A DNA stretch of 64,000 bases from NCBI RefSeq assembly GCF_001038505.1, contig NZ_LDPY01000004.1, forward strand, positions 124,001 to 188,000, given 5' to 3'. The number at the start of each line of letters is the position of its first letter. Positions within the stretch are counted from its first letter, which is position 1. Origin of the DNA: Puniceibacterium sp. IMCC21224 (lineage in GTDB: Bacteria > Pseudomonadota > Alphaproteobacteria > Rhodobacterales > Rhodobacteraceae). The notes under the pieces are model-generated. The model saw only the letters and a program-made list of their open reading frames with translations, was not told where the DNA came from and did no database searches. Shown here piece by piece: positions 8,734 to 50,699 of the stretch. The position numbers and the translations under genes were made by a program.

Positions 8734-8747
8734 CTAACATATGTTAG
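8734..8747. promoter_or_regulatory. Operator copy 1, perfect 14-bp palindrome CTAACATATGTTAG
   Basis: CTAAC-ATAT-GTTAG is preceded by T. It lies upstream of the first HAAT transporter operon. A plausible sigma-70 promoter surrounds it: TTGATT at 8721-8726 and TAGGTA starting in the right half-site (8745), spaced 18 bases. The same motif appears at 28391, 32050, 48214 and 50671, always before an island operon, which suggests a single TetR-type repressor. The site is seen directly; the binding protein is inferred. Confidence 0.7.
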
Positions 8748-8812
8748 GTATCAGAAAGCGGCTTGGCACCTCCGGCAAGCAGCCCTCTGAAATAAGAGGT
8801 GGGAGGAGAAAA

Positions 8813-8905
8813 ATGCGAGGAAACCTCGTCACTTGCGGATCACCGTTCGGTCAGGTTATGTGCCGTTCCATGGGCTGTCGGCAAAAGGCACGGGCTGAGT
8901 CATGA
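8813..8905 (+). CDS. Possible 30-aa leader peptide ORF coupled to the ABC gene
   Basis: A strong Shine-Dalgarno (GGGAGGAG, 4 bases before the ATG) precedes this 30-codon ORF. Its TGA overlaps the following ABC ATPase start as ATGA. The peptide begins MRGNLVTCGSPFG and has three cysteines and several arginines. The ATPase itself has no good ribosome site of its own (upstream AAAAGGCACGGGCTGAGTC), so this ORF may drive its translation by coupling. No family is recognised. It could be only a translational leader rather than a functional peptide. Confidence 0.4.
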   Translation: MRGNLVTCGSPFGQVMCRSMGCRQKARAES

Positions 8906-9681
8906 CCACGAATGGGGGGATCGTCACATCGCCGCTTGCTGTGCGCAGTGCAACTTTGAAATTTGGCGGTGTGACGGCGCTCGACGATGTGAGCATTACC
9001 GTGAACGACGATGAATTGCTTGCGATCATCGGTCCGAACGGTGCCGGAAAAACATCACTTCTGAACGTTACTGCGGGTTTCTATCGTCCGCAGAAGGGCC
9101 GTGTCGAGTTGTCCGGGCAGGACGTTACCGGCCTGCGTGTAGACCAGATCGCCCGGCGCGGACTGGCGCGTACGTTTCAGGGCACCCATCTCTTTGCCGG
9201 GCAGACCGTGGTGGAAAACATCATGATCGGTCGTCACATGCTGATGAAATCGAATGTGATCCAGGCCTTTTTCCAGTTTGGGCTCGTGATGCGGGAGGAA
9301 TCAGAGCATCGCGAAGCCGCCGAAGAGATTATTGACTTTCTGGAGATCGAAGCAATCCGCAACCGGCCAGTGGGCACATTGGGCTACGGGCTGCGCAAAC
9401 GTGTCGATCTGGGCCGCGCATTGGCGCAGGAACCATCCATCCTGCTGATGGATGAACCGATGGCTGGCATGAACTCGGAAGAGAAAGAAGACCTCGCGCG
9501 CTTCATTCTCGATGTGCGCGAGGCGCGCAAGATTCCAGTGGTTCTGGTCGAGCACGACATGGGCGTTGTTATGGACCTTGCTGACCGGATCGTGGTGCTG
9601 GACTTCGGGCGGGTCATCGCCGAAGGCACGCCCGAAGAAATCCAGAAGAACCCGGCTGTGATCAAGGCATATCTGGGTTAG
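8902..9681 (+). CDS. HAAT-type ABC importer ATP-binding protein (LivG-like)
   Basis: The 259-aa ATPase has Walker A GPNGAGKTS (44-52), a degenerate signature GYGLRKR (161-167) in place of LSGGQ, Walker B ILLMDE (180-185) and the LivG-like C-terminus with EGTPEEIQ. It energises import through the permeases at 11699-13639. It is the first member of a six-gene importer set (ATPase, CoA ligase, two permeases, binding protein, second ATPase). The embedded CoA ligase suggests that the cargo is an organic acid rather than an amino acid. Translation is probably coupled to the 30-codon ORF upstream. Confidence 0.9.
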   Translation: MTTNGGIVTSPLAVRSATLKFGGVTALDDVSITVNDDELLAIIGPNGAGKTSLLNVTAGFYRPQKGRVELSGQDVTGLRVDQIARRGLARTFQGTHLFAGQTVVENIMIGRHMLMKSNVIQAFFQFGLVMREESEHREAAEEIIDFLEIEAIRNRPVGTLGYGLRKRVDLGRALAQEPSILLMDEPMAGMNSEEKEDLARFILDVREARKIPVVLVEHDMGVVMDLADRIVVLDFGRVIAEGTPEEIQKNPAVIKAYLG

Positions 9682-9685
9682 CGGG

Positions 9686-11683
9686 ATGACAAAACAACGA
9701 ACAGCAATGGTCTTTTCAGACCCGGCAGTGACACACAGCGAAACCCTGCCGCAGGTTTTGCTCGCGCGTGCAACGTCCATGCCGAACAACCTCGCCGAAC
9801 GCCACAAGCGCCTGGGCATCTGGCGGGAATTCACCTGGGCCGATGTGATTGACAGAGTTCGTGCCCTGGCTCTCGGGTTGGAGAACCTGGGCCTGTCGGC
9901 GGGCGAATCCGTCATGTTGATCGGGGAAAACGAACCCGAACATTTCTGGGCTGAATACGCCGTTCAGTCATTGGGCGGCAAAGTCCTGTCCGTCTATCCG
10001 GATCAGAACGCCGAAGAGATCCTGTATCTGGCCGAAGACTCGCAAACGCGGATTTTTCTGGCGCAGGATCAGGAGCAGGTCGATAAATGCATCGAGATCG
10101 CGGGCAAGTACTCGGGTGCCTTGGCGATCGTTTACTGGGATGATTCTGGTCTTTGGAGCTATGATCATCCCCTTTTGCATTCATTTGAAAGCCTTAGCGC
10201 GGCAGGACGTCAGATTCACGCCAAGGAGCCTGCCAGATTTGAAGAACACGTCAAACGCGGACGGGCGGACGATACCGCCTTGCTGTCCTATACCTCCGGG
10301 ACCACGGGAAAACCGAAGGGCGTTGTCATCAGCTATCGTTACCTGTTCGACAACTGCTCACGTGTGATGGGGGCAATCGAAATCGCGCCAGGCACCGAAT
10401 ACTTGACGTACATTTCGCCTGCCTGGGTCACGGAACAGATTTTCGGCCTGTCGATCGGTTTGATCGCGCCCATGGTCGTCAATTTTCCCGAAGGCCCCGA
10501 AGATGTGCTGACCAACATCCGCGAACTGGCGGTTGACGCGCTGGTGTTCAGTCCGCGCCAGTGGGAAAACCTTGCGTCGATCGTGCAGGCCCGGATGTTG
10601 GGCGCGGGCAAGTTCCGCAACTTGATGTACAATTGGGGTATGAAAGTCGGCCGTGACGTTTATGTCGAACGCTTGGAAGGGCGCAGTCCCAGCCTCGCCT
10701 CGCGCCTGCGACTTCCCTTTGCCGAGGCGCTGGTGCTGCATCACCTGCGCGACAATTTGGGCCTTGGCAAGGCAAAAAATGCGATGAGCGGCGGTGCTCT
10801 GATGGCCCCCGAAGTCTTTCGCATGTTCCACGCCATGGGGGTCAAGCTGCGCAACGTCTATGGCGCGACCGAAATCGGCCTTCTGACCGCGCATGTCAGC
10901 GAAAGTTATCAGCTGGAAACAAGCGGCAGCTGGATGCAAAGCAATACCGCTTATGGCGATCCGTTGGAATACCGCATAACGCCGCAAAGTGAGTTGCAGG
11001 TCCGCGGCGGCTCGGGCTTTGGCGGATATTATGGCAAACCGGACGAGACCGCCGAGGTGCTGACCGAAGACGGTTGGTATGCCACCGGCGATGCGGTTTC
11101 GATGACCGATGACGGAGAGCTGGTATTCTACGACCGCGTCAAGGACATGCGCCGCCTAGCGAACGGCCACAGTTATCCGCCGCAGTTTATCGAAACACGG
11201 CTGCGCTACAGCCCCTACATCAAGGATCTTATGACGCTGGGCGACGAAACCCGGGATTTTGTCGGAGCGCTGATCAATATCGACATGGAGGTCCTCAGCC
11301 GCTGGGCCGAAGAGAACAATATCAGCTTCTCGACCTATACCGACCTGTCGCAAAAAGCCGAGGTTCTGGACCTTATCAAAGGCGAGGTTTCGCGCATCAA
11401 CGCCTTGCTGCCCGAAGGTTCTCGGGTCGTGCGGTTCGCGAATTTCCCCAAGGAACTGGACCCGGACGAAGGCGAGCTGACCCGCAGCCGGAAACTCCGG
11501 CGCGCATTCCTGGAAGATCGGTATGCCACGCTCGTCGAGGCTATTTACAGCGGTGCCGACAAGATCGACCTTGAGATTGCCGTTACTTATCAGGATGGCC
11601 GCCAGGGCGTGCTCAGGGCCGAGGTGCGTGTATCGGATGTCGAGAGCGGATCGAAGGCTGCCGGGCGGCGGTCGCAAATTTAA
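9686..11683 (+). CDS. AMP-forming acyl-CoA ligase embedded in transporter operon
   Basis: This 665-aa ANL-superfamily enzyme has the P-loop-like motif SYTSGTTGKPKG (201-212), the YGATE adenylate motif (~395), the GDAV...YDRVKD hinge around 470-485 and a long-chain ligase-type C-terminus. The length matches FACL-type ligases. It activates an acid with ATP and CoA, likely as it is imported (vectorial acylation). Its start lies 4 bases after the ATPase stop. A paralogue with the same placement is encoded at 44585-46504. Chain type is unknown; the protein lacks obvious membrane segments. Confidence 0.88.
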   Translation: MTKQRTAMVFSDPAVTHSETLPQVLLARATSMPNNLAERHKRLGIWREFTWADVIDRVRALALGLENLGLSAGESVMLIGENEPEHFWAEYAVQSLGGKVLSVYPDQNAEEILYLAEDSQTRIFLAQDQEQVDKCIEIAGKYSGALAIVYWDDSGLWSYDHPLLHSFESLSAAGRQIHAKEPARFEEHVKRGRADDTALLSYTSGTTGKPKGVVISYRYLFDNCSRVMGAIEIAPGTEYLTYISPAWVTEQIFGLSIGLIAPMVVNFPEGPEDVLTNIRELAVDALVFSPRQWENLASIVQARMLGAGKFRNLMYNWGMKVGRDVYVERLEGRSPSLASRLRLPFAEALVLHHLRDNLGLGKAKNAMSGGALMAPEVFRMFHAMGVKLRNVYGATEIGLLTAHVSESYQLETSGSWMQSNTAYGDPLEYRITPQSELQVRGGSGFGGYYGKPDETAEVLTEDGWYATGDAVSMTDDGELVFYDRVKDMRRLANGHSYPPQFIETRLRYSPYIKDLMTLGDETRDFVGALINIDMEVLSRWAEENNISFSTYTDLSQKAEVLDLIKGEVSRINALLPEGSRVVRFANFPKELDPDEGELTRSRKLRRAFLEDRYATLVEAIYSGADKIDLEIAVTYQDGRQGVLRAEVRVSDVESGSKAAGRRSQI

Positions 11684-11698
11684 GGGAGGTCGGCAAAA

Positions 11699-12583
11699 AT
11701 GGTCTATTTCATCAATGACATCATCACCGGGGCCTTGATCGGCCTGCTTTACGCGCTGGTGGCCATGGGGTTCGTCGTGATCTACCGCGCTAGCAAGGTG
11801 TTCAATTTCGCGCAGGGCGAACTGGTGATCATCGGCGGTTTCATCGTCTGGTTCACAACCATGCAGCTCGGCCTGAGCCTGTGGCTGTCGATCCCGCTAT
11901 CCTTGGTTCTTGCGGGTCTTGTCGGCTATCTGATCGAACGGATTTTCCTCACCAAGCTGATCGGTGAATCGGTGTTCTCGATGGTGATGGTGACTGTCGG
12001 CCTGCTGATCCTGCTGCGTGGCGTCGTCCTGCTGCTGTTTGGGGCTTCCGTCCGGCCATTCCCGATCATCTTTCCGCTGAAGCCGCTCTTACTCGGCGAT
12101 ATGCTGATTCCGATGAACTTGCTTATCGGGGGGATCATCACCATCGTTGCCGCCGTTGGCCTGTCCTGGTTCTTCAACTGGACCCGTTCAGGCCTGCGGA
12201 TGACGGCAGTGGCCGAAGATCACGTCGTCGCTGCTTCGATGGGGATTTCGGTGAAAGGCTCTATTGCCTTTGCCTGGATTCTCGGCGCAATCCTGTCCAC
12301 GATAGGAGCGATGATCTTCCTCAGCGGCAAGTCGCTGACCTTTCTGGCCTCGGATATCGGTTTTGCGGCACTGCCGGTTGCATTGTTCGCCGGGTTGGAG
12401 TCGATCGGCGGACTTGTCCTGGCGGGAATCATCATCGGTGTAATCCAGAGCCTGACCACCAACTACCTCGATCCGATCATCGGCGGCTCGCTCGGCAGTG
12501 TCGTGCCCTATATCATCATGCTTGCCATTCTGCTGATCCGGCCCACGGGTCTGTTCGGCTGGCGCACAATCGAGCGGGTTTAA
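11699..12583 (+). CDS. HAAT ABC importer permease (LivH-like)
   Basis: This is a 294-aa hydrophobic integral membrane protein with the LivH hallmarks: GLLYALVAMGFVVIYRASKVFNFAQGE near the N-terminus, many transmembrane segments, and a C-terminus ending in IRPTGLFGWRTIERV. It forms the inner-membrane channel with the LivM-like protein that follows 3 bases downstream. A good ribosome site (GGGAGG) precedes the ATG. The closest counterpart in this window is 43697-44584. Confidence 0.92.
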   Translation: MVYFINDIITGALIGLLYALVAMGFVVIYRASKVFNFAQGELVIIGGFIVWFTTMQLGLSLWLSIPLSLVLAGLVGYLIERIFLTKLIGESVFSMVMVTVGLLILLRGVVLLLFGASVRPFPIIFPLKPLLLGDMLIPMNLLIGGIITIVAAVGLSWFFNWTRSGLRMTAVAEDHVVAASMGISVKGSIAFAWILGAILSTIGAMIFLSGKSLTFLASDIGFAALPVALFAGLESIGGLVLAGIIIGVIQSLTTNYLDPIIGGSLGSVVPYIIMLAILLIRPTGLFGWRTIERV

Positions 12584-12586
12584 TTC

Positions 12587-13639
12587 ATGGATCCTTCCGG
12601 CATTTTTCCCACAAGCTATCGCGCCGACAGACGTCTCGTGCGCACGCGCTGGCAGGCGGTTTGCCTGGCGCTGTTCCTCGTGGTTATGCTGGCGATGCCC
12701 TATCTTGTGAGCGGGCGTATCATCGCCGTGCTGAACATGATGCTGATCAGCGCCGTGATCGCCGTCGGACTCCAGATTTGCACCGGCTATGCGGGCCAGA
12801 TCAATCTGGGCCAGGCCGCATTCATGGGGGTGGGCGCCTATACCGCTTCGATACTGGCCTCCAAGACCGGTCTCACGTTCCTGTTGACCATACCGTTGGC
12901 CGGGTTCGCGGCTGCGCTGTTCGGCTTTCTCTTCGGTTTGACGGCGACTCGGATCAAGGGGTTCTATCTGGCGCTGACGACTCTCGCGGCACAGTTCATC
13001 TTTCATTTTGCAGTCCTGAACCTGCCATCCTCCTGGCTAGGTGGCTCAAATGGAGTCACCGTGCCGGCAGCAGAGATATTCGGGCTGCGCTTCGTCACCG
13101 AGACCCAGCAATTCTACATGAACCTTGCGGTTGCCGCGATCATGATCGCAGGCGCGTTCGGGATCATCCGGTCGCGCTTCGGTCGCGCCTTCATCGCGGT
13201 CAGGGACGATGACGTGGCCGCAGGCATCATGGGGATCAATGTAGCGGCTACCAAGGCGAATGCCTTTCTGATCGGCGCCTTCTATGCTGGCGTCGGCGGG
13301 GCACTCTGGGCCTACATGATCCGCTTTGTCGGGGTCGATCAATTCACCCTGTTCCATTCCATCTTTTTCGTGGCGATGATCATCGTCGGTGGAATGGGGT
13401 CGATCGTCGGGGCGCTGGTCGGTGTCTTCGTCATTCGCACCATCCAGGAAGTTATTGCCACAGTCGGCCCGAATATCGCCGATTCCGTCTCGTTTCTGGG
13501 AGGCGATATCGTGTTCGCGGGCATGAACGTCATTCTTGGTGGCGTGATTGCCTTGTTCATGATCCTTGAACCCAAGGGGGTGATGCACCGCTGGAATATC
13601 CTGAAATCGTCTTATCGTATCTGGCCGTTCCCCTATTGA
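12587..13639 (+). CDS. HAAT ABC importer permease (LivM-like)
   Basis: A 350-aa polytopic membrane protein with the LivM signature (CTGYAGQINLGQAAFMGVGAY, then RIKGFYLALTTLAAQFI). It has about ten hydrophobic segments and an N-terminal hydrophilic extension of ~25 residues. It pairs with the preceding LivH-like permease. It ends 30 bases before the periplasmic binding protein, in the usual HMK order for this transporter type. Confidence 0.92.
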   Translation: MDPSGIFPTSYRADRRLVRTRWQAVCLALFLVVMLAMPYLVSGRIIAVLNMMLISAVIAVGLQICTGYAGQINLGQAAFMGVGAYTASILASKTGLTFLLTIPLAGFAAALFGFLFGLTATRIKGFYLALTTLAAQFIFHFAVLNLPSSWLGGSNGVTVPAAEIFGLRFVTETQQFYMNLAVAAIMIAGAFGIIRSRFGRAFIAVRDDDVAAGIMGINVAATKANAFLIGAFYAGVGGALWAYMIRFVGVDQFTLFHSIFFVAMIIVGGMGSIVGALVGVFVIRTIQEVIATVGPNIADSVSFLGGDIVFAGMNVILGGVIALFMILEPKGVMHRWNILKSSYRIWPFPY

Positions 13640-13669
13640 TTTCGGGGCGGTCTATAACCTGGGAGGAGA

Positions 13670-14914
13670 ATGAAAATGACATACCTCAGCAAATCGGGCC
13701 TTGGGGGGCTGCTGGCCGCCGGAACGCTGGCGCTCGCCACGGCGCTACCAATGAAGGCACAGGCGGAGACCACATATAACCTTGCGCTTCTGTCGGACTT
13801 TTCTGGCCCCTATGCCGACATCATGCCGATCTTGGCCTCAAGCCGGGAGGTCGTTTTCGACTGGTGGAACGCGACCAGCGGCAAGGAACTCGGCGTCAAG
13901 CTGAACTACAAGAACTACGAGACCCGATATGATGCCGCACAGGTCGCCAGCCTGTGGCCCGGAATCAAGTCGGAGCTGGCGCCGATCGCCGTGGTCGGCC
14001 TTGGCGGGCCGGACGTGGCGGCCCTGTCCGAACGCTTACCCGAAGACAAGATCCCGATGTTCATGGCCACGGCCGCCTATGGCTTTGCCTGGCAGCCCGA
14101 TTCCTGGATATTTAATCCGCGCCCGACCTATTCGCATGAAGCCGCAGGCTTTCTGGCTTGGATGCGCGAACAGCGTGGCGGCGACGAACCCATAAAATTC
14201 GCGGTCCTGTCCTCCGAGGCATCCCCTGCCTATGTCGATATGGGAAAGGGGCTCGAAGTCTATGCCGAAGAGCATCCCGAGGCCGCCGATTTGGTTGAGG
14301 TCATCTATACCGACGTGCAGCCGACCGACCTGACCGCGCAAATGCGTCGCGTCGCGCGGTCGGGGGCCGAAGCGGTGATCATCCAGACCAACACCTCGAT
14401 CGTGGTCGCCGCGAAACGCGGGTTGCAGGCCAACGGGGCCGACATCCCGATCATGATGAGCTCGCATAACGGGCTGCCTGCCTCGGGCAAAGCGCTTGGC
14501 GGGCTGGCGCAGCTTGAAGGCGACTTTGAGGCCTACGGCATGGTGATCGCGGCCGATGAGGACACAGAAGCGCGGCAGTTTTACCAGACCCTAGTTTCGG
14601 ATTACGGGCTCAAGGCGCCCTGGAATGTCGTGACGGCCATGGGGATTTCCCAGGCCATCTATACCGTGGCCGTGATCGAGCACGCGATCGAGGAGAACGG
14701 TGCCGAAGGTCTGACGGGCGAGCTGGTGCGCGAGGCGCTCTTTGCCAAGCCGATCACCTCGGAGGAAACCCATGGCTTCCTTCCGAGTCTCACTTTCACC
14801 CCAGAAGCCCCCTTTCCTCTGAAAGGACTCAAGGTGAACGTGGGCACGGTTAAGGACGGGAAGATCACCATCGCGGCGACCGGCGTCGATGTTCCCGATT
14901 TGAGCAAGTGGTGA
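13670..14914 (+). CDS. HAAT periplasmic substrate-binding protein (LivK-like)
   Basis: This 414-aa secreted binding protein has a Sec signal peptide (residues 1-32, hydrophobic core LLAAGTLALATAL, predicted cleavage after KAQA). A type I periplasmic fold follows, starting YNLALLSDFSGPYAD and containing TDVQPTDLTAQMRRVARSG. It captures the imported ligand. GGGAGGAG precedes the ATG; a second in-frame ATG at 13676 is possible. It is only distantly like the two tandem binding proteins at 39188-41763, so the two importers probably recognise different ligands. Confidence 0.9.
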   Translation: MKMTYLSKSGLGGLLAAGTLALATALPMKAQAETTYNLALLSDFSGPYADIMPILASSREVVFDWWNATSGKELGVKLNYKNYETRYDAAQVASLWPGIKSELAPIAVVGLGGPDVAALSERLPEDKIPMFMATAAYGFAWQPDSWIFNPRPTYSHEAAGFLAWMREQRGGDEPIKFAVLSSEASPAYVDMGKGLEVYAEEHPEAADLVEVIYTDVQPTDLTAQMRRVARSGAEAVIIQTNTSIVVAAKRGLQANGADIPIMMSSHNGLPASGKALGGLAQLEGDFEAYGMVIAADEDTEARQFYQTLVSDYGLKAPWNVVTAMGISQAIYTVAVIEHAIEENGAEGLTGELVREALFAKPITSEETHGFLPSLTFTPEAPFPLKGLKVNVGTVKDGKITIAATGVDVPDLSKW

Positions 14915-14922
14915 ACAAAACC

Positions 14923-14946
14923 CGGGCACCGCGATCGTGGTGCCCG
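14923..14946 (+). promoter_or_regulatory. Hairpin between binding-protein and LivF-like genes
   Basis: An 8-bp perfect inverted repeat (CGGGCACC / GGTGCCCG, 8-base loop) lies 8 bases after the binding-protein stop, with no following T-run. Stem-loops at this place often protect the 3' end of the abundantly needed binding-protein mRNA; that role is inferred. Confidence 0.5.
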
Positions 14947-14975
14947 ACCCTTTCTCTGGATCCGGACCCGAAGTT

Positions 14976-15767
14976 ATGCTCGAACTCAATAACGTGGAAG
15001 TGACCTATTCCGACGTCATTCTGGCGCTCAAAGGGATCTCAATGACCGTGCGCGAGGGTCAGTGTGTTGCGCTTCTCGGTGGAAACGGGGCAGGGAAAAG
15101 CACGACGCTCAAGGCGATTTCCGGAACTCTGAAATCCGAAGACGGAACCGTGTCCGCCGGTTCGATCGTCCTGAACGGCACGCCGATTCAGAACATGGAA
15201 GCGTCGAATGTGGTAAAGAATGGCCTTATCCATGTGATGGAGGGCCGACGCGTGCTGCGTCACCTGACATCGGAACAGAACCTGATTGTCGGCGGGCATA
15301 TGGTGACCAATTCCACCGAACTGAAAAACCGTCTGGCTCATGTCTACAGTCTGATGCCGCGTCTTGCGGACCTGCGCAACCGCACCTCGGGGTTCATGTC
15401 CGGCGGTGAGCAGCAACTGCTTTTGATCGGCCGGGCCATGATGGCGAGGCCCAAGATCATCGCCATCGACGAGCCGTCGCTGGGTCTGGCGCCGATGATG
15501 GTCCGTGACGTCTACGAAGTTCTCAAACAGCTCAAGCGCGAAGGCACGACCTTCTTTCTTGTTGAACAAAACAGCGCCGCCGCCCTGTCGATCGCCGATT
15601 ACGCCTATGTGATGGAAAACGGGCGCATCGTCTTGGATGGCCCCGCCCACAAGCTCGCCGGCAACGAAGACATCAGAGAATTCTATCTTGGTGTCACCGC
15701 CTCCGGTGAACGCAAGAGCTATCGCGAAATCAAGCATTATCGGCGCCGCAAGAGATGGCTCGGATAG
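14976..15767 (+). CDS. HAAT-type ABC importer ATP-binding protein (LivF-like)
   Basis: The 263-aa protein from the ATG at 14976 has Walker A GGNGAGKST, the signature SGGEQQLL and Walker B KIIAIDEP. It keeps the LivF-type ending around FYLGV. A longer version from a GTG at 14937 would begin inside the hairpin and adds residues without homology, so it is not preferred. It is the second ATPase of the importer. It ends in an Arg/Lys-rich tail (HYRRRKRWLG) nearly identical to that of the second LivF-like protein at 41797. Confidence 0.9.
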   Translation: MLELNNVEVTYSDVILALKGISMTVREGQCVALLGGNGAGKSTTLKAISGTLKSEDGTVSAGSIVLNGTPIQNMEASNVVKNGLIHVMEGRRVLRHLTSEQNLIVGGHMVTNSTELKNRLAHVYSLMPRLADLRNRTSGFMSGGEQQLLLIGRAMMARPKIIAIDEPSLGLAPMMVRDVYEVLKQLKREGTTFFLVEQNSAAALSIADYAYVMENGRIVLDGPAHKLAGNEDIREFYLGVTASGERKSYREIKHYRRRKRWLG

Positions 15768-15780
15768 GAGGGGAAATACA

Positions 15781-24078: not shown

Positions 24079-24105
24079 GATCATGCCTCCCTGTTCAGTC
24101 GTGGC

Positions 24106-24915: not shown

Positions 24916-24943
24916 GGTTCTTTTCCTCCTCAGGGTATTAGGT

Positions 24944-27219: not shown

Positions 27220-27655
27220 TTCGTTTTCGCTTCATCATCAATGGGACGTCAGCTGAAAGAACCACCTCGCCCTTGGGGTTCCTGACGCTGAGCGTATAGT
27301 GCAAAACACCTCGATCGGGCTTGCTTTTGGACGGCGTGACCGAGTTGATAGTCATTTCGATATCGAGGGGTTCATCCGGGCGGACAGGCAGCAGCCAGCG
27401 CAGATTCTCGAAGCCCATGCCGCCGATATTGGCCACCTCGACCATCAATTCCGTCACGACAGGTTTGAACACCTCAAGCACGGTCTGAAATCCCGAGGCG
27501 ATCAGGCTGCCATGTATCGCGGTCGCATAGTCTTCGTCGGTGTGCAGCCGTTGCGGGTCCCACTCCTGGGCAAAGGCCTTTATGGACTGTGCGCTCATCG
27601 GGGCGCTGCGAAAGTGAAAGACTTGGCCCGACTCGAAATCGTCAAGATATTTCAA
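27206..27655 (-). CDS. MaoC-like single-hotdog enoyl-CoA hydratase
   Basis: A 149-aa single-hotdog protein with the hydratase-2 motif AFAQEWDPQRLHTDEDYA (catalytic Asp and His) followed by HGSLIASGFQT. It hydrates 2-enoyl-CoA to (3R)-hydroxyacyl-CoA, probably as a dimer. Its start overlaps the upstream transglutaminase-like gene by 4 bases and its stop overlaps the ACAD start by 14, so the set is tightly coupled. ACAD pairs plus a short MaoC protein echo steroid side-chain operons. Confidence 0.87.
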   Translation of the reverse strand: MKYLDDFESGQVFHFRSAPMSAQSIKAFAQEWDPQRLHTDEDYATAIHGSLIASGFQTVLEVFKPVVTELMVEVANIGGMGFENLRWLLPVRPDEPLDIEMTINSVTPSKSKPDRGVLHYTLSVRNPKGEVVLSADVPLMMKRKRNDTG

Positions 27656-31617: not shown

Positions 31618-31620
31618 GGC

Positions 31621-32063: not shown

Positions 32064-32100
32064 ATTCTGTCAAGCTCCTAGGATCACGTGAGAGAACGCC

Positions 32101-40438: not shown

Positions 40439-40524
40439 GTTTCTCTCTCCCGTTGTTGAACGCAGGGCTCATAGTTCCAATACTGATTCTCAGCCCCACG
40501 CATTTTGCGTTCAGTTGCCATTCT

Positions 40525-41763: not shown

Positions 41764-41796
41764 CTTTTCCTCCCTGAACAATCTCTGTCTAGTGAC

Positions 41797-42609: not shown

Positions 42610-42621
42610 CGGCATTCCTCT

Positions 42622-43695
42622 TTACTTTCTGAGCTGATCGAAGGGCCAGGTCATAAGATAGTCTCTGATATTGCCGTAGAGTTTTCCGAGACCTAGCGGT
42701 TCGATCATGAGAATGATGACGATCAACGCGCCGTAGACCGCATTGGGGATATGAGCGAGCGTTTCCACATTGACCTGCATGCCGAGCTCTTCGCTCGCTG
42801 TCACGACGAGCCCGTTCACCAGCCCCGGCACGAGCAGGATCAACGCAACTCCGAAATAGGACCCGATGATGCTGCCAAGTCCGCCTACGATCACCATCGC
42901 CAATACCTGGATTGATACGTTTACCGAAAACTGTTCGGGTGCGGCCAGAAAGTAGAAGGTCGCGACCAGCAGGGCCCCGCTGACACCGGCAATGAAAGAC
43001 GATGCCGCGAAGGCTAGGATCTTGTAGTAGAAGCTGTTTACGCCGAGGATCGCCGCAGCAAAATCCTTCTCACGCACTGCGACAAGTGCACGTCCCAGCC
43101 CAGTGCGCTTGAGGTTTAGCATGAAGATTGTGACCAAGACGCACCAGCCAAGTGCGACATAATAATAGCCGGCATCAGAGGTGATCTGCTGTCCTAACAG
43201 CGCCAAAGTTGGAGCCTGAAGTGATGCGTGTGACCCGCCGGAAATCGTTGGGGAGTGGGTCAATACCCAGTCCATCACGAATTGCATCGCGAGGGTCGTG
43301 AGCGCGAGATAAAGACCTTTGACCCGCAATGCGGCAAAGGCGAACAGACTGCCGATCACTGATGCCGCCAACCCGCCAATGATCAAGGCGATTTCCCAAG
43401 GCACCCCGAGCCGCACGGCATGTATGGCCGAATAGGCACCAACGGCCATTACTGCGGCATATCCGAGATGGAGCTGTCCGGCCCAGCCTGTCACCAAGTT
43501 CAGTCCTAAAGCGGCGGCTGTCCAGATCAGCCAAGGCAAAATGTAACTGTTAAGGTAAAGTGACGGTAGGATAAACGGTGCCGCAAGTCCGATCAACAGA
43601 AGGAACACCGCCAAGTTCCGGTCTGCCGGAACTTTGAACATGCGGCTATCCGAGATCAAACTGGAGTGGTAGACACCCGAGAGTCGATAGAACAT
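42622..43695 (-). CDS. HAAT ABC importer permease (LivM-like)
   Basis: A 357-aa polytopic membrane protein with NLVTGWAGQLHLGYAAVMAVGAYSA and ALRVKGLYLALTTLAMQFV, the LivM signature, plus a ~25-residue hydrophilic N-terminus. GAAAGGGTGTAAA precedes the ATG. Its start lies one base from the LivH-like stop (43697). It forms the channel with that protein. Confidence 0.93.
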   Translation of the reverse strand: MFYRLSGVYHSSLISDSRMFKVPADRNLAVFLLLIGLAAPFILPSLYLNSYILPWLIWTAAALGLNLVTGWAGQLHLGYAAVMAVGAYSAIHAVRLGVPWEIALIIGGLAASVIGSLFAFAALRVKGLYLALTTLAMQFVMDWVLTHSPTISGGSHASLQAPTLALLGQQITSDAGYYYVALGWCVLVTIFMLNLKRTGLGRALVAVREKDFAAAILGVNSFYYKILAFAASSFIAGVSGALLVATFYFLAAPEQFSVNVSIQVLAMVIVGGLGSIIGSYFGVALILLVPGLVNGLVVTASEELGMQVNVETLAHIPNAVYGALIVIILMIEPLGLGKLYGNIRDYLMTWPFDQLRK

Positions 43696-43696
43696 T

Positions 43697-44584
43697 TTAC
43701 ACCCTTTCGATGTCGTGACGGCCGAACAGTCCGTGCGGACGGATCATGACCGTAAGAATCAGGACCGCGGCGACGATGAGTTCGCGGCTGCCGCCTCCGA
43801 CAAGCGGATCAAGAAATTCCGCACCGACATTTTCGATTACGCCCAGAATGATACCAGCAACGATCGCGCCTAATATGCTGTCGAGACCACCCAGAACAGC
43901 GACAGTCAGACCCTTGAGAAGCAGAAGCGACAGTGCCTGATCGACACCCTGGATTTCGCCCCAAATGACACCTGCCGCCACAGCCACCACAGAAGCGAGG
44001 GCCCAGGACAGCCCGACACCGCGCTCGACCGAAATTCCGACAGACCATGATGCCATGTAATCATCCGCGATCGCCCGCAATTTGATCCCGGTCCGGGTTC
44101 GAAAGAACACCATGAAAGCGACGAACAGGGCAAGCGCAACGCCGGCGCCGACCAGATGGATGCGGCTGATGAAGATGTCGCCCAGAAACAATGGTTCATA
44201 GCTGACACCGAGTTCCATCGAACGCGACGTCCCACCCCAGATTGCAAGCGTTGTGCCCCGCAGGAAGATGTCGAGGCCAAGTGTCAGCATCAGGATCATG
44301 ACGACCGGACGGCCCGCGAGACGCCGAAGCGCCACCCTTTCAATGCCAAACCCCAGACCGAACATGACGACCGCAGCAAGCGGAATAGCTAGCCATAACG
44401 GCATTCCCAGATCGCGCGCTAGGGCAAGAACCACATAAGCCCCGACCATTGTCAGCCCGCCCTGCGCCAGATTAGGCACCGAGGATGCCTTGTAGACCAG
44501 GACCAGGCCGATGGCAAAAAGTGAATACAACAGACCCGTCAGGGCACCGTTGATCGCAAGCTCTGATAAAAAAACCCAATCCAT
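43697..44584 (-). CDS. HAAT ABC importer permease (LivH-like)
   Basis: A 295-aa polytopic membrane protein: INGALTGLLYSLFAIGLVLVYKASSVPNLAQGG, several further hydrophobic spans, and an end of IRPHGLFGRHDIERV matching the other LivH-like protein. GGGAGG lies upstream of the ATG, which directly adjoins the stop of the CoA ligase gene. Confidence 0.93.
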   Translation of the reverse strand: MDWVFLSELAINGALTGLLYSLFAIGLVLVYKASSVPNLAQGGLTMVGAYVVLALARDLGMPLWLAIPLAAVVMFGLGFGIERVALRRLAGRPVVMILMLTLGLDIFLRGTTLAIWGGTSRSMELGVSYEPLFLGDIFISRIHLVGAGVALALFVAFMVFFRTRTGIKLRAIADDYMASWSVGISVERGVGLSWALASVVAVAAGVIWGEIQGVDQALSLLLLKGLTVAVLGGLDSILGAIVAGIILGVIENVGAEFLDPLVGGGSRELIVAAVLILTVMIRPHGLFGRHDIERV

Positions 44585-46504
44585 TTAAACCTCCCTTATG
44601 GGAAGGGTTCTTTCGACCTTCCCCATTTCTCCGGTCTCGTAAGCCACCTGGGCGCTCACATGGACCTTGGTTGAACCGTCATAGAGTGCCGCGATAACAT
44701 CGGCGTAGCGTTCCTCTACGACCTTGCGACGCAGTTTTCGGGTTCGAGTGATCTCGCCATCGTCCGGGTCAAATTCCTTTGGAAGGCAGACAAAGCGCTT
44801 CAGGTGCAGTGGCTCGGTGACGGCCTTGTTTACCCGTTCGAAAGCCGGGCGTATTAGCGCCGCGACTTCGTCGCGCTGAGACAAATCTGAATAGGACACA
44901 TATGGCACACCGTTCACCTCGGCCCAATGACCGACAGCTTCAAAATCCACGCAGATCATCGCAGTCAGCTCATCCCGCCCCGCTCCGACAACGGCCGCAT
45001 CCTTGATATACGGACTGAATTTCAGCCGGTTCTCTATATAGTTTGGCACGTAGCGTTCACCGCCCGCCGTATGCATGACCTCGGAGACGCGCCCCAGAAC
45101 CACAAGCTGGCCATTCTCCTCAAGATAGCCGGCATCGCCAGTACGCAGCCACCCGTCCGTCAGGGCTTCGGCGGTCGCTTCGGGTTTGTTGAAATAGCCA
45201 TTGAACACACCTTCCGAGCGCAAGAGGATTTCACCGTTCTCGTCAATCTTCGCCTCGACACCCGGCACGGGCTTGCCGACGGTATGCAGGCGCACCTCGT
45301 TGGGGGCCTGCATCGCGGTGATCGCGCTGTGCTCGGTCTGGCCGTAGAACTGGCGCAGCTTGATCCCGAGGGCGCGGTAGAACACGAAGGTATCTTCGCC
45401 AATCGCCTCGCCACCGGTAAACGCATTCCTCAGGCGGCTCATGCCGAATTGATCCTTGATCGGACCGAAAATGAGAGCCTCCCCCAGAAAACGGCCCAGT
45501 GGTTCCAACGCACCACCACTTTGGCCGTTCAGTTTGCGCGTCTCGGCGGCAATCGCCCGGTCCATGAAGAAGTGGTAGAGCCACTTCTTCAACGGGGTTG
45601 AGTTCTCCATGCCGACCTGGATTGTTGTCAACATCTGGTCCCAACTCCTGGGTGCTGCCAGGTAGAAGGTCGGTGCGATTTCCCGCATGTCTCGAACGAC
45701 CGTTTCCTGCCTCTCCGGTACGTTCACCGTGAACCGGAACATCAGCGCCGCCGCCACCGTTATGGCATAATCGCCGACCCAGGCCATCGGGAGATAGGCA
45801 AGGATTTCCTCTCCCTCTCCAAACACTCCCGCTGCATGGCCATTGCGGACAGCGGCAAGAACATTCTTCTGGCTCAGTACGATACCCTTCGGCTTGCCCG
45901 TGGTGCCCGACGAATGCAGGAAGATTGCCGGGTCCTCGGGCTTCGCTCTGTTCAGAAGTTCATCGCGGCGGCGCGGATCCTCGTTGAGACTGTGCAGGCC
46001 GATTTCGATCAGGTGATCCCATGACATCAGGCCGTCGTCTTCATAGAAGCTGAGCCCGCGCGTTTCGTCGTATATGATATGCGCTATGCCGCTCGCGCTC
46101 GCGCTCCGCAGCTCGAGGACCTTGTCCACTTGCTCTTGATCTTCTGCTATGGCCGCGACGATTTCGACCTCGCTCAGGAAATGCTGAAGCTCTTCGATCG
46201 TTGCGCCAGGATAAGCCGGCATTGCATAGGCACCGAGCAGCGAAATCGCAAGCATGCCTGCATAGAGCCGCGCACGGTTGTCGCCCAGAATGAGCACAGC
46301 CTTGCCGGGCTTTACGCCGATCTTCTCAAGCCCGGCCGCGCAGGCCAGTACTTCTTCGGCGTACTCTGCCCAGGTGGTTTCCTTCCAGATTCCACGCTCT
46401 TTTTCGCGAATAGCAATATTCGACCCGTAGCTTGACGCGTTCCGTGCCAGCAATGCCCCGATCGTTTCGCTGGCGGAAAACTGCGATTTTGCTGCTTCAA
46501 CCAT
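44585..46504 (-). CDS. AMP-forming acyl-CoA ligase embedded in second transporter operon
   Basis: A 639-aa FACL-type ligase from the ATG at 46504 (GGAGGATCGC upstream). It has ILHSSGTTGKPKGIVLS, FYGQTEHSA in the adenylate motif, LRTGDAGYLEENGQLVVLGRVSEV in the hinge and a long C-terminal domain with FDPDDGEITRTRKLRRK. It is a paralogue of the ligase at 9686 with equal position in its operon, so each importer carries its own acid-activating enzyme. Substrate identity is unknown. Confidence 0.9.
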   Translation of the reverse strand: MVEAAKSQFSASETIGALLARNASSYGSNIAIREKERGIWKETTWAEYAEEVLACAAGLEKIGVKPGKAVLILGDNRARLYAGMLAISLLGAYAMPAYPGATIEELQHFLSEVEIVAAIAEDQEQVDKVLELRSASASGIAHIIYDETRGLSFYEDDGLMSWDHLIEIGLHSLNEDPRRRDELLNRAKPEDPAIFLHSSGTTGKPKGIVLSQKNVLAAVRNGHAAGVFGEGEEILAYLPMAWVGDYAITVAAALMFRFTVNVPERQETVVRDMREIAPTFYLAAPRSWDQMLTTIQVGMENSTPLKKWLYHFFMDRAIAAETRKLNGQSGGALEPLGRFLGEALIFGPIKDQFGMSRLRNAFTGGEAIGEDTFVFYRALGIKLRQFYGQTEHSAITAMQAPNEVRLHTVGKPVPGVEAKIDENGEILLRSEGVFNGYFNKPEATAEALTDGWLRTGDAGYLEENGQLVVLGRVSEVMHTAGGERYVPNYIENRLKFSPYIKDAAVVGAGRDELTAMICVDFEAVGHWAEVNGVPYVSYSDLSQRDEVAALIRPAFERVNKAVTEPLHLKRFVCLPKEFDPDDGEITRTRKLRRKVVEERYADVIAALYDGSTKVHVSAQVAYETGEMGKVERTLPIREV

Positions 46505-47282
46505 GCGATCCTCCAATATATGCCTCGATAACCCTCGGATCTTTTACAACATCCTTCGGGATACCGCTGGCGATCATTTCGCCGTAGTTGAGTGCCAGCA
46601 CCCGATCACAAATACCGATGATGACGTCCATATGATGTTCGATAAGCAGGACACTAACGCCGCGTTCATCCCGCGCGTCCAGAATGAAGCGGGACATATA
46701 CCCCTTCTCCTCCTGGTTCATACCCGCCATCGGCTCGTCAAGGATCAACATCTGCGGCTCTGCCACCAGGGCCCGCGCAAGTTCGACCCGCTTTTTCAGC
46801 CCGATCGGAAGGCCGTCGACCAGTTCGTACCGGATGCTCTCGAGCTGCAGGAACTCGATCACCTCCTCGACGATTTTGCGGTTCTCGACTTCTTCAGGAC
46901 GGGCCGCCCACCAATAGAACGCCGTGCGGAAAACTCCCGGGTGCATATGAATGTGCCGGCCGAGCAGGATATTATCGAGAACGCTCATCCCATTGAAGAG
47001 CGCGAGGTTCTGAAACGTCCGGGCCACACCGAGCTTTGCAACCTTGTGGGGTGCCGTGCCGGTAATGTTCTTTCCGGCCAACCGGACAGTCCCCTCGTTT
47101 GGCGGGTAGAACCCGGTGATTGCATTGGTAAGCGTCGTCTTGCCACTGCCATTCGGCCCAACAAGGCCGAAGATTTCCCCTCGCTGGATGACAAGATCGA
47201 CACCGGTGACAGCAACGATACCGCCAAAACGGCGTTCGATCCCTGTGCATTCCAGTATCGGCTTATTACTTAGTGTCGTCAT
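46497..47282 (-). CDS. HAAT-type ABC importer ATP-binding protein (LivG-like)
   Basis: A 261-aa ATPase (MTTLSNKPILECTG start) with Walker A GPNGSGKTT, the degenerate signature LPIGLKKRVELARAL, Walker B MLILDEP and a LivG-type tail. Its stop overlaps the ligase start by 8 bases. It is the first transporter gene after the SDR at 47316. As in the first importer, the order is LivG, ligase, LivH, LivM; here LivF comes before the binding proteins instead of after. Confidence 0.92.
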   Translation of the reverse strand: MTTLSNKPILECTGIERRFGGIVAVTGVDLVIQRGEIFGLVGPNGSGKTTLTNAITGFYPPNEGTVRLAGKNITGTAPHKVAKLGVARTFQNLALFNGMSVLDNILLGRHIHMHPGVFRTAFYWWAARPEEVENRKIVEEVIEFLQLESIRYELVDGLPIGLKKRVELARALVAEPQMLILDEPMAGMNQEEKGYMSRFILDARDERGVSVLLIEHHMDVIIGICDRVLALNYGEMIASGIPKDVVKDPRVIEAYIGGSHG

Positions 47283-47315
47283 ATGGCCCCCGTTTTCCCC
47301 CAGGCAATGCACGTA

Positions 47316-48170
47316 TCAAGATATCCGGAAGTAATCCGGTCGACCTGTGGGCCAGGGATCTCCCCACAACTGCTGCCCACCGTCGATATTCAGAACTTCA
47401 CCGGTTACGAATTTCCCCGAATTTGCCGCCATATAAACAACGCCTTCGGCGACATCCCATTCGTCGCCGGCGTGGCGCATCGGATTTGAGTCCTCGAAGG
47501 TGGCCGCGCCGTCTTCGGGATAGTTGTGAAAGCCGTTGCTTTCACAACATCCGGGCGCCACGCAGTTCACGCGAATCCCATGCGGCGCCCACTCTACCGC
47601 GACCGATTTTGACAAGTATATCACCCCTGCTCGCGCCGCACAGGTATGCGCGATGCCCGGCATGCCGCGCCAGATGTCGGCCACGATATTCACGATAGAA
47701 CCGGGTCGCTTTTGCTCGACCCAGTGTCGTGCGGTGGATTGCATCATCCACCAGGTCCCGTTGAGGTTGGTGTCGATGACCGCGTTCCAGCCCTTCGGAG
47801 AAAAGTCCAACGCTGCTTGGGGAAACTGACCCCCGGCATTGTTCACCAGAACGTCAATCGATCCGAATTCACGGTTGACCTCGCCAACGAAGTCCTCGAC
47901 CTGTCCGGGATCCCGGATCGTCATAGGCTTGGCAAACACCATGCCACCAAAAGTTTCGAGAAATTCCTTGGCCGAGGCCAGCTTTACCGCGTCGCGTCCA
48001 TTGATCGCAAGATTGGCACCCAACCTAGCGAACAGCACCGCAATGGAAAGACCCAAGCCACCGCCGGCGCCCGTCACAGCAACGGTTTTACCCGCAAACA
48101 AGTCGCTTGCATACACGGTTGCGCGTGACGCCAAGTCTCCTCGCGAAGACCCGTACTGCGTCTTAGTCAT
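47316..48170 (-). CDS. SDR family oxidoreductase
   Basis: A 284-aa SDR from the ATG at 48170 (GGGAGGAGGCGTC upstream); the longer frame crosses the operator and is rejected. It has VTGAGGGLGLSIA for NAD(P), NNAGGQFP, GSIVNIVADI and a CAARAGVIYLSKS region. The usual Tyr of YxxxK is replaced by Ala or Cys in that region (THTCAARAGVIYLSK), so 2,4-dienoyl-CoA-reductase-like chemistry, which does not use the classical Tyr, is more likely than alcohol dehydrogenation. It is the first gene of the second transporter operon. Confidence 0.8.
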   Translation of the reverse strand: MTKTQYGSSRGDLASRATVYASDLFAGKTVAVTGAGGGLGLSIAVLFARLGANLAINGRDAVKLASAKEFLETFGGMVFAKPMTIRDPGQVEDFVGEVNREFGSIDVLVNNAGGQFPQAALDFSPKGWNAVIDTNLNGTWWMMQSTARHWVEQKRPGSIVNIVADIWRGMPGIAHTCAARAGVIYLSKSVAVEWAPHGIRVNCVAPGCCESNGFHNYPEDGAATFEDSNPMRHAGDEWDVAEGVVYMAANSGKFVTGEVLNIDGGQQLWGDPWPTGRPDYFRIS

Positions 48171-48213
48171 GACGCCTCCTCCCTGTGTCCCGTTCGGGTT
48201 CGTTGCGGATAAT

Positions 48214-48227
48214 CTAACGCGTGTTAG
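48214..48227. promoter_or_regulatory. Operator copy 4, CTAACGCGTGTTAG
   Basis: This copy lies 43 bases upstream of the SDR start, on the minus strand. TTGCAT, 17 bases, then TAGATT form a promoter whose -10 lies in the operator's outer edge. This spacing is the same as at the 32050 copy. It would control the SDR-LivG-ligase-LivHM-LivF-binding-protein operon. Confidence 0.7.
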
Positions 48228-48275
48228 AAAACTATGCAAGACAAGAATGCGCTTTGCTATAGTGATCACCTCTGG

Positions 48276-49442
48276 TCAGTAAGACTTTGGAAGCCCTAAC
48301 GCTTTTTCGGCGATGAACGACAAAAGCATCTGTGGTGTCACGGGGACGATGCGGAAAAGTAGTGCCTCTCTTACCAGACGCTCCACATGATATTCCTTGG
48401 CGTATCCAAACCCGCCAAAGGTAATCTGCGCTGCTTCAGTCGCCTCGACCGCGGCATCTGCGGCCAGTAGCTTGGCAGCGTTGGCTTCCACTCCGCACGC
48501 CTCTCCCGAATCATAGAGGGCGGCGGCATGCATCACCATGAGATTGGCAGCTTCCACCCGTGCCCATGCCATTGCCAGCGGATGCTGGATGCCCTGATTC
48601 TGGCCGATCGGCCGCCCAAAGACCACACGCTCGTTGGCGTATTGCGCGGCGCGCACCAATGCATTGCGTGCGATGCCGATGCATTCGCCGGCAACGAGGA
48701 TGCGTTCCGGGTTCAGCCCATGCAGAATCTGTCGGAAACCCTTGCCCTCTTCCCCAATCAAGTCTTCGGCCGGGATTGGCAGTCTGTCGATGAACATCTC
48801 GTTCGAGTCAACGGCTTTCCGGCCCATTTTTTCGATTTCGCGAACATCCACGAAATTGCGGTCCAGATCCGTATAGAACAGGCTCAAACCCTCGGTCGGG
48901 TTAGTCACGTCTTCAAGCCGTGTCGTTCTGGCCAGAAGCAGCATCTTGTGGGCCACCTGCGCGGTCGAAATCCAGACCTTTTGACCATGAACGACGTACC
49001 TGTCCCCCTGTCGCACAGCTATGGTTTTAAGCTTGGTGGTATCCAGCCCGGTCGTCGGCTCGGTTACAGCGAAACAAGCTTTTTGATCGCCGGCGATCAG
49101 AGGGGGCAGCATGCGAGCGCGCTGTTCATCGGTTCCGAACTTGACCACCGGGTTGAGCCCGAAAATGTTCATGTGGATGGCCGAGGCCCCGCTGGCGCCA
49201 GCCCCCGATTCGGCAATCGCCTGCATCATGACGGTCGCTTCGGTGATCCCCAGACCAGCACCGCCTACGTCTTCCGGCATGGCAATGCCAAGCCAGCCAC
49301 CATCTGCCATCGCCCTGTGCAAATCATGCGGGAAACCCCCGTTCCGATCCCGGTCCAGCCAGTAGTCGTCATCAAACTGCGCACATATACGCAGGATCTG
49401 ATCTCGAATTTCCTTTTGTTCACCCGTCATTCGAAATGTCAT
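48276..49442 (-). CDS. Acyl-CoA dehydrogenase
   Basis: A 388-aa ACAD with AMPEDVGGAGLG, AVTEPTTGLDTTKLKT, VHGQKVWIST and the C-terminal TFGGFGYAKEYHVERLVREALLFRIVPVT...ALGLPKSY. It is the closest relative in the window of the ACAD at 6677, sharing the TTGLDTTKLKT and HVER blocks. Its start overlaps the CaiB-type gene stop by 4 bases; the pair is driven from the operator at 50671. Confidence 0.92.
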   Translation of the reverse strand: MTFRMTGEQKEIRDQILRICAQFDDDYWLDRDRNGGFPHDLHRAMADGGWLGIAMPEDVGGAGLGITEATVMMQAIAESGAGASGASAIHMNIFGLNPVVKFGTDEQRARMLPPLIAGDQKACFAVTEPTTGLDTTKLKTIAVRQGDRYVVHGQKVWISTAQVAHKMLLLARTTRLEDVTNPTEGLSLFYTDLDRNFVDVREIEKMGRKAVDSNEMFIDRLPIPAEDLIGEEGKGFRQILHGLNPERILVAGECIGIARNALVRAAQYANERVVFGRPIGQNQGIQHPLAMAWARVEAANLMVMHAAALYDSGEACGVEANAAKLLAADAAVEATEAAQITFGGFGYAKEYHVERLVREALLFRIVPVTPQMLLSFIAEKALGLPKSY

Positions 49443-50650
49443 TGTGTCTCGCTCCCATCCACACCTACAAACCCTGCCTCACACAGGGCAGTGATCCGGT
49501 CATCTTCATATCCAAGATTGCGCAGAATGCTTCGGCTGTCCGCGCCCGGCGGCCGCCCTAGCCAGCGCAACTCACCGGGGGTGGCGCTGAGATGCGGGAT
49601 AGGTCCAATCACCTGCGTTTGCTCGCCCTCAACCGATACGATGTCGCCGCGATGACGTATCTGCTCATTCGTCATGATCTCCTCGACGCTCAGCACACGA
49701 GAGGCAACCGCATCATAGCGGGCAAACTCCGCCTCGACTTCCGCAAGCGTGTGTTGCGTGACGAAATCATTTATGGCGTCGAAGACCACGGCCATATGCT
49801 GCGACATCTCGTCGAGTGTAGCGAACCGCGGATCATCGGCCAGCGCATCTCCGCCGACCGCCCGCAACAGGCGTTGCGCTGTTTCTGCGCTACCAGCCGA
49901 AACGGTCACCCACACCCCATCAGAGGTTCGGAACATGCCCCCCGGCGCAAAATCCATCGGCTGGCGCAGCCCGTTGCGCCGCGGCGAGAGGTTCGCGCCC
50001 GTCAATGCGGGCACGGGATAGTCCATCAGTCGAAGCAGCGCCTCGAACACCGCAAGATCGACGACCTGACCACGCGCAATCCCTTTTTCCCGGGCAAACA
50101 GCGCGATCATGATCCCCAAAGCACCCATCAACCCTGTCGTGCTGTCGGCCGCTGGAAATCCGGGGTGCATCGGTGGCCCGTCCGCAAAACCAGTCAGATG
50201 GGCTAGACCACTCAACGCCTCTGCCGCGCGCCCGAAAGCGGGCACGTCCCGCATCGGGCCGTCCTGACCGTAACCCGAAACGCGCAGAATAACTAAATCC
50301 GGGTTCCACTTATGCAGGGTTTCAGTCCCGACACCCGCACGTTCAAGCACGCCTGGCCGGAAATTTTCAACAAGTACGTCGGCGCTTTCAACCAGTCTGC
50401 GCAGGATGTCCCGTCCTTCGCCCGACTTCCAGTCGAGGCTCAGAATTTTTTTGTTGCGGCCCAGAGTTTTCCACCAAACGCCAACTCCGTCCCCGGCCTT
50501 TGGTCCGAGATCGCGCATCATATCCGTCCGGTTGGGTGCCTCAATCTTGATGACGTCTGCCCCAAAATCAGAAAGCAGCGAGGTCGAGAGTGGTCCAGCA
50601 ATAACATGACCGAGTTCGATGATTTTCAGCTGATGAAGTGGGGAGGTCAT
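49439..50650 (-). CDS. CaiB/BaiF family protein with altered nucleophile position
   Basis: A 403-aa CaiB-fold protein with the SGYGQDGPMR strand. The catalytic (Y/F)D-VQ motif reads PAFGRAAEALSG, so Gly140 stands where the nucleophilic Asp is expected. A second Asp is present in FPAADSTTG (Asp169). Many family members annotated as CoA-transferases carry this FGR variant, so activity as a transferase is unproven. It is the first gene of a two-gene operon with the ACAD at 48276. The start at 50650 lies six bases from the operator palindrome. Confidence 0.8.
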   Translation of the reverse strand: MTSPLHQLKIIELGHVIAGPLSTSLLSDFGADVIKIEAPNRTDMMRDLGPKAGDGVGVWWKTLGRNKKILSLDWKSGEGRDILRRLVESADVLVENFRPGVLERAGVGTETLHKWNPDLVILRVSGYGQDGPMRDVPAFGRAAEALSGLAHLTGFADGPPMHPGFPAADSTTGLMGALGIMIALFAREKGIARGQVVDLAVFEALLRLMDYPVPALTGANLSPRRNGLRQPMDFAPGGMFRTSDGVWVTVSAGSAETAQRLLRAVGGDALADDPRFATLDEMSQHMAVVFDAINDFVTQHTLAEVEAEFARYDAVASRVLSVEEIMTNEQIRHRGDIVSVEGEQTQVIGPIPHLSATPGELRWLGRPPGADSRSILRNLGYEDDRITALCEAGFVGVDGSETQ

Positions 50651-50655
50651 ATGAT

Positions 50656-50699
50656 CTCTTCGCTAATAATCTAACATCCGTTAGATTATTAGCGAAGAG
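50656..50699. promoter_or_regulatory. Operator copy 5 within a 44-bp near-perfect palindrome
   Basis: The core CTAACATCCGTTAG (50671-50684) is extended on both sides to 20-bp perfect arms (CTCTTCGCTAATAATCTAAC and its complement) around a 4-base centre. On the minus strand TTCGCT, 17 bases, then TAGATT is the equivalent promoter, overlapping the right arm. It is the longest such palindrome in the window and precedes the CaiB-ACAD operon. Confidence 0.75.

Follow-up and report, generated by a model that had tools for sequence, protein, structure and literature searches.

TCTAAC-N4-GTTAGR, a palindromic motif present five times in a 64,000-nucleotide stretch of Puniceibacterium sp. IMCC21224 (the window; positions 124,001-188,000 of contig NZ_LDPY01000004.1, here C4), probably serves as operator for a small TetR repressor subfamily and appears to join the operons of a catabolic island (about C4 85-175 kb; window 1-50700) into one local regulon. 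Two members of this subfamily, a single-unit protein, T1, and a protein with two TetR units fused head to tail, T2, are encoded in the island just left of the window, and an operator is found at the start of each gene (Table 1). On the sequence comparisons reported here, T2 would be the master repressor of the TCTAAC-N4-GTTAGA sites and T1 a related local repressor acting mainly on its own operon, a reading to which we assign a probability of about 0.77. A preliminary description of the window had proposed that a TetR-type operator ties the island into a single regulon; the clustering of the sites, their promoter-like overlap and their presence at the starts of two TetR genes support that proposal.

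The five copies first described in the window are all present, each starting one base before the position initially given (8734, 28391, 32050, 48214 and 50671). A single further match with up to two mismatches was found in the window (at 20293, with two), and the earlier statement that none lies elsewhere holds for the window; it does not hold for the island, in which five more sites, three exact and two with one mismatch, lie to the left. The 11 strand-matches in the window compare with 1.73 expected, and 11 was reached in none of 100 shuffles. In the whole genome (5.56 Mb, nine contigs) CTAAC-N4-GTTAG occurs exactly eight times, always between C4 95,329 and 174,684, that is, within about 80 kb, three of the eight being left of the window. 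With TCTAACN4GTTAGA, three one-mismatch matches are found, at C4 97,577 and 104,807, both ending in GTTTGA, and at 132,733, which ends in GTTAGG and lies in the window; all nine genomic sites with at most one mismatch to this sequence fall in the island. The operator set is one of ten sites, eight exact and two asymmetric variants (C4 97577 and 104807). The count alone proves little, because a reversed control pattern occurs 12 times in the genome, against eight for the motif. It is the clustering and the intergenic placement that carry the case: the chance that all eight exact sites fall within 80 kb of 5.56 Mb is about 1e-13, and all ten sites are intergenic by the gene calls made here in an island that is 6.5% intergenic (chance about 1e-12). 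Moreover, all ten face island operons, as had been claimed for the first five. The preliminary description had suggested that a genome-wide scan would either place the sites on the island and beside a TetR gene outside the window or scatter them among unrelated genes; the former is the case, with T1 and T2 as the outside genes, and a motif dispersed over the genome is rejected, since the exact and one-mismatch sites are confined to the island. At two mismatches the genome holds 30 sites, one of which is T1's own and 29 of which lie elsewhere; the reversed control gives 246 at the same limit.

The right half of the operator overlaps promoter-like sequence. At the 32049, 48213 and 50670 sites it supplies TAGATT, 17 bp from TTGATA, TTGCAT and TTCGCT, respectively; these -35 letters had been read correctly, and agree with TTGACA at five, three and three of six positions. 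Among 50 sites, 10 from this island and 40 from relatives, a -35-like hexamer (at least four of six matches at 16-18 bp, on the better of both strands) is found for 32 (64%), versus 20% of 3,000 intergenic control positions. The consensus of 48 aligned sites is WWTCTAACRNNYGTTAGAWW, the right half of which gives TAGAWT. When 14 orthologous pairs from two plasmids are compared, identity is 52-53% in the flanks and 59% in the 4-bp centre; that of the arms, 100%, is by selection, as only matching sites were paired. The longer inverted repeat around the 50670 operator (Table 1) is a promoter-like sequence identical in both reading directions; P. pseudonitzschiae (L092) keeps a version of it with 17-bp arms and a different centre.

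The view that the regulator is not obvious was right for the window but not beyond it, where T1 and T2 can be named; no candidate had been found because both genes lie left of the window. With 150 of 165 first-look candidates scored, 22 TetR_N matches were found in the genome, and three of them, in two proteins, T1 and T2, have the operator immediately upstream. T1 has one TetR_N stretch (PF00440; 66.8 bits) and T2 two (117.1 bits in all), at a cut-off of 24, and the ligand domain TetR_C_24 is found once in T1 and twice in T2; both proteins have the N-terminal helix-turn-helix and the C-terminal ligand domain of the TetR type. The two units of T2 lie in one open frame, as seen with 57 aligned T2 sequences. 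Their recognition helices are nearly identical (EAGSIYYHF and KAGSVYYHF), and the helix AGS(I/V/L)YYHF is found in all subfamily members compared, except for AR in place of AG in one C-terminal half (L071), and in none of 19 other TetRs compared from this genome. T1, its single-unit relatives and the N- and C-terminal halves of T2 fall together in a single clade (local support 0.906), within which the two kinds of half group separately, as would be expected from one old fusion. The TetR genes at 55104 and 55801 have, as noted before, no operator nearby at up to two mismatches; having also other C-terminal families and other recognition helices, they are rejected as the cognate regulators. Since KstR2 (solved chains 4w97 and 4w1u) and a fatty-acid metabolism regulator are among the solved sequence relatives, a CoA thioester or an acid is a plausible ligand.

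The operator is conserved before both regulator genes, with different outer bases. Among 80 T2 loci from the collection of genome contigs, an exact site is found by the T2 start in 57 and a one-mismatch site in 22, one locus having no upstream sequence; the site ends 10 bp before the projected T2 start in 57 of the 62 loci at 64% identity or more, and 17 of the 18 loci below 60% have asymmetric sites, mostly with GTTCGA or GTTTGA in one half. For T1 (38 matches, 30 of which became loci), the site is exact in 29 loci and has one mismatch in the other, and lies 27 bp from the start in 18. The outer bases are T/T in 55 of 57 T2-own sites and in 31 of 37 other targets, but in none of 40 T1-own sites, in which the outer base is A/C in 34. 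T2-own sites and most other targets are thus TCTAAC-N4-GTTAGA, whereas T1-own sites share the CTAAC core with other outer bases, a split that points to T2 as the likely best candidate for the regulon and to T1 as that for the carboxylase operon it heads. All of 43 genomes chosen for having T2 (and holding 44 of the 80 T2 loci) contain asymmetric sites (TCTAACRNNYGTTYGA), with a total of 83 against 20 control matches, so that up to a quarter of them may be due to chance; the one before an acyl-CoA dehydrogenase operon points the same way in P. pseudonitzschiae. A two-headed chain would be better suited than a homodimer to reading asymmetric sites.

The number of operators largely goes with the presence of T2. 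The same 43 genomes all carry 4-10 copies of the motif (control, 0-4). With the strict motif CTAACRNNYGTTAG, used for the samples of family and class genomes, at least three copies are found, among 149 family genomes, in exactly the four that have a full-length T2 (8, 6, 7 and 7 copies; P about 5e-8); in G061, which is among them, the halves of its own T2 are the only matches to T1. Conversely, six family genomes with only a T1-like single TetR (37-57%) have one copy, about 45 bp to 3 kb upstream, in four cases and none in two. In P. pseudonitzschiae H46 the usual neighbours of T1 are there, but neither the T1 gene nor any motif is found between them; seven exact sites stay on the plasmid. All 16 plasmid records picked for a T1 and/or T2 match (that of Polaromonas being a 43% relative) carry 1-9 copies, with 0-2 for the control. 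Among 385 class genomes, at least three copies are found in four (G000, G455, G248 and G471), one of which (G248) has a single TetR, matched at 56% to the C-half of T2, with an operator on each side. This compact cluster (L239, C4:220000-238000 of that genome), in which three operators lie among short-chain dehydrogenase/reductase (SDR), acyl-CoA dehydrogenase and ABC-importer genes, is perhaps close to a pre-fusion state.

Alternatively, T1, presumably a homodimer, could be the master repressor of all sites, with T2 as a minor or derived paralogue. A homodimer fits a symmetric operator, the core half-site is found before the T1 gene in 30 loci (exactly in 29, with one mismatch in the other), T1 is present in 37 of the 43 T2 genomes, and two T/T sites persist on the Frigidibacter plasmid, which has T1 but no T2 match. 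However, the six T2 genomes without a T1 match at E<=1e-45 (G157, G159, G177, G185, G189 and G190) still have 7, 7, 5, 5, 6 and 7 copies, and G031, in which a T1 relative (57%) occurs but full-length T2 does not, has only the copy that sits before that gene; together with the lack of T/T among T1-own sites, so common in other targets, this makes mastery by T1 unlikely. Similarly improbable, in our view, is that every site can be bound by either T1 or T2, with two ligands integrated on a common operator set; the almost identical recognition helices, the common CTAAC core, the site before both genes and the joint presence of both proteins in those 37 genomes would be in keeping with it, but the outer bases of T1 and T2 sites differ consistently, which suggests insulation. 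That the repeats are due to another regulator, such as the island's helix-turn-helix gene in the operon divergent from T2 (annotated in a relative as AraC family), or to a regulator-free feature of the DNA seems very unlikely, given a perfect dyad in intergenic, promoter-overlapping placement and a tie to the T1/T2 subfamily that holds in genomes with other gene sets.

Several observations weigh against T2 as the master repressor. Twelve of the 149 family genomes have no T1 or T2 match and yet carry one copy of the motif, or two (G077), and isolated copies therefore arise without these proteins. G471, of the class sample, has three copies on three contigs and no T2 match, and G531 has two tandem TetRs (47% and 40%) but one strict copy. 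In G455, which has seven copies, the T2 match (76%) holds two stops; these are a TGA and a TAA (L234), and a T1 match elsewhere (L056, G044) has an in-frame TAG, both interrupted matches being possibly decaying copies or assembly errors. The T1-like TetRs of G005 and G137 (39% and 42%) have no motif in their genomes, and the Polaromonas relative has none within 5 kb on either side. On the Frigidibacter plasmid, T1 is found without a separate T2 match (on the plasmid, the part searched) beside the two T/T sites. In addition, the islands share ancestry, so that the loci are not independent; the absence of T1 from drafts and metagenome bins may reflect incomplete assembly; and in the protein searches scoring was confined to the top first-look candidates (at most four per genome in the class sample).

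With T2 as the main reader of the operator, the following course of events can be proposed. Since the recognition helix is nearly the same in both units, a single T2 chain would do the work of a dimer, with one head on each CTAAC half-site of TCTAAC-N4-GTTAGA, and since the right half of the operator doubles as the -10 region, RNA polymerase would be shut out while T2 is bound. Release of T2 would be brought about by an intermediate of isoprenoid breakdown, a CoA thioester or an acid, and the T2 gene would then be switched on at the same time as the island operons. The main target of T1 would be the operon to which it belongs, though some cross-talk is possible. More tentatively, and at somewhat less than even odds, a fuller version may be drawn: T2 would sit as a single-chain symmetric pseudo-dimer on palindromic operators throughout the island, beside a paralogue that would act as a homodimer on the same core half-site and be separated from T2 by nothing but the outer base pair; T2 would also read the conserved asymmetric TCTAAC-N4-GTTYGA, a poor site for a homodimer, so that the fusion would have let the regulon mix symmetric and asymmetric sites and possibly sense two ligands.

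Table 1. Regulators, operators and operons of the island. Positions are those of the window unless given on C4; operon limits in the window are from gene calls and their product names from plasmid record NZ_CP085157.1.
Feature	Position	Strand	Remarks
T1	C4:94672-95301	-	209-aa TetR; first gene of carboxylase operon; left of window
T2	C4:109871-111226	-	451 aa; two TetR units fused head to tail; left of window
Operators left of window	C4 95329, 97577, 104807, 111237, 119768		95329, T1; 111237, T2
Operator TCTAACATATGTTAGG	8733-8748	+	before first ABC-importer operon; between genes ending 8691 and starting 8902
First ABC-importer operon, after 8733 site	8902-16569	+	ABC ATPases, AMP-ligase, two permeases, substrate-binding protein, SDR
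Operon leading away from 28390 site	22882-28371	-	transglutaminase-like, MaoC, two acyl-CoA dehydrogenases, enoyl-CoA hydratase, phenylacetate-CoA ligase-like
Operator TCTAACAAATGTTAGA	28390-28405	-	
Operon leftward from 32049 site	28438-31998	-	OB-fold protein, thiolase, MaoC, CaiB CoA-transferase
Operator TCTAACACCTGTTAGA	32049-32064	+	between divergent operons; right half TAGATT, 17 bp from TTGATA
Operon rightward from 32049 site	32101-34430	+	two CaiB/BaiF-type CoA-transferases
Second ABC-importer operon, after 48213 site	39188-48170	-	SDR, two ATPases, AMP-ligase, two permeases, two substrate-binding proteins
Operator TCTAACGCGTGTTAGA	48213-48228	-	minus strand TTGCAT-17-TAGATT
Operon after 50670 site	48276-50650	-	acyl-CoA dehydrogenase, CoA-transferase
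Operator TCTAACATCCGTTAGA	50670-50685	-	
Perfect inverted repeat around 50670 operator	50656-50699		20-bp arms, 4-bp centre; TTCGCT-17-TAGATT on both strands

The part of the island tested, 25 kb, is 100% identical to plasmid pDSM107133_c of Pseudosulfitobacter sp. DSM 107133, the annotation of which lists an AtuA-family protein, three biotin-carboxylase/carboxyltransferase sets, hydroxymethylglutaryl-CoA lyase and citryl-CoA lyase, as well as many acyl-CoA dehydrogenases and hydratases, CaiB/BaiF CoA-transferases, an electron-transfer flavoprotein subunit and two branched-chain-type ABC importers. Judged by its gene content, the island resembles one for acyclic-terpene/isoprenoid catabolism via methyl-branch carboxylation. 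The right-hand piece of the island matched 45 plasmid records, in 34 of which the best place is at 80-90% identity, and the left-hand piece 52, with 41 in the same range; the plasmids are mostly of roseobacters, with Roseibium, Nitratireductor and others. The 7.35 kb around T2 recur at 100% identity in Chachezhania antarctica, at 99.9% in a Hyphomonas metagenome bin and at about 97% in Paracoccus solventivorans; together with the Pseudosulfitobacter plasmid, this near-identity across genera suggests recent transfer. Plasmid pcai42C of Frigidibacter mobilis (L028, L070) has a reduced island, made of the T1 carboxylase operon and a CoA-transferase/thiolase pair with two operators, and a type I-E CRISPR-Cas set about 12 kb from T1. 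In the window, an RND efflux operon with two more TetR genes (50848-56454) adjoins the island; it has no operator of its own and therefore seems to be outside the regulon.

These results name a candidate regulator and operator for a widely spread plasmid island of apparently isoprenoid-type catabolism in marine bacteria, and would make the whole pathway testable through one regulator. Genomes with both T1 and T2, with T2 and no detected T1, with T1 relatives and no T2, and with single-unit relatives form a natural series in which two questions can be studied: the passage from a TetR dimer to a single chain, and the way in which a single base pair may keep paralogous repressors from interfering with each other. 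Among the matches listed from open-licence literature on terpene/isoprenoid degradation in roseobacters, on tandem TetRs and on the operator letters, we recognised no account of this system; the letters TCTAAC and GTTAGA are shared by a LysR paper (PMC6422896), where both passages found sit in the oligonucleotide table.

Several known TetR repressors of lipid or terpene catabolism invite comparison. KstR2 is a sequence relative of T1 and T2 but a single unit, and its ligand is a CoA thioester. KstR, too, is a single TetR unit. KstR of mycobacteria is described as controlling a many-site lipid-catabolism regulon through a palindrome, TnnAACnnGTTnnA, that partly overlaps the -10 region (PMC1995591); the regulon proposed for the island is similar in these respects, but AAC and GTT are separated by N2 in the KstR site and by N4 here. 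AtuR of Pseudomonas, the TetR repressor of acyclic terpene utilization, governs a gene set for the same kind of pathway, and the sites quoted for it are AGCAAGCGCTTGG and CCAAGCGCTTGCT (PMC9973270). It is by these quoted sites rather than by protein sequence that AtuR is set apart: the island sites are TCTAACN4GTTAGA, with a CTAAC-N4-GTTAG core, and their main candidate regulator is tandem, and an AtuR-type operator of the AGCAAGCGCTTGG kind is rejected for them, the comparison being of island sites with the quoted letters and not a search of the island for the AtuR site. The closest parallel is Mce3R of Mycobacterium tuberculosis, a double TetR repressor of solved structure, reported to act as a single-chain TetR with two heads on DNA, the recognition helices being 32 A apart (PMC11667970); like it, T2 has two TetR units per polypeptide in a context of lipid catabolism. 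Mce3R is also the best solved sequence match of T1 (E 1e-20, in two stretches) and matches T2 at E 4e-15. However, Mce3R is not among the matches of a profile of the 57 T2 sequences at E<=1e-15, which do include single-unit chains such as KstR2, and the T2 fusion may therefore be separate. According to the same paper, the halves of Mce3R come from distinct TetR subgroups and its operator is non-palindromic (PMC11667970), whereas the halves of T2 belong to one subfamily, with matching helices, and the palindromic core before T2 is exact at most loci, the sites of the divergent T2 group and two of the island being asymmetric. A double TetR is thus already known from Mce3R, and T2 differs from it in its similar halves and its mostly palindromic candidate sites.

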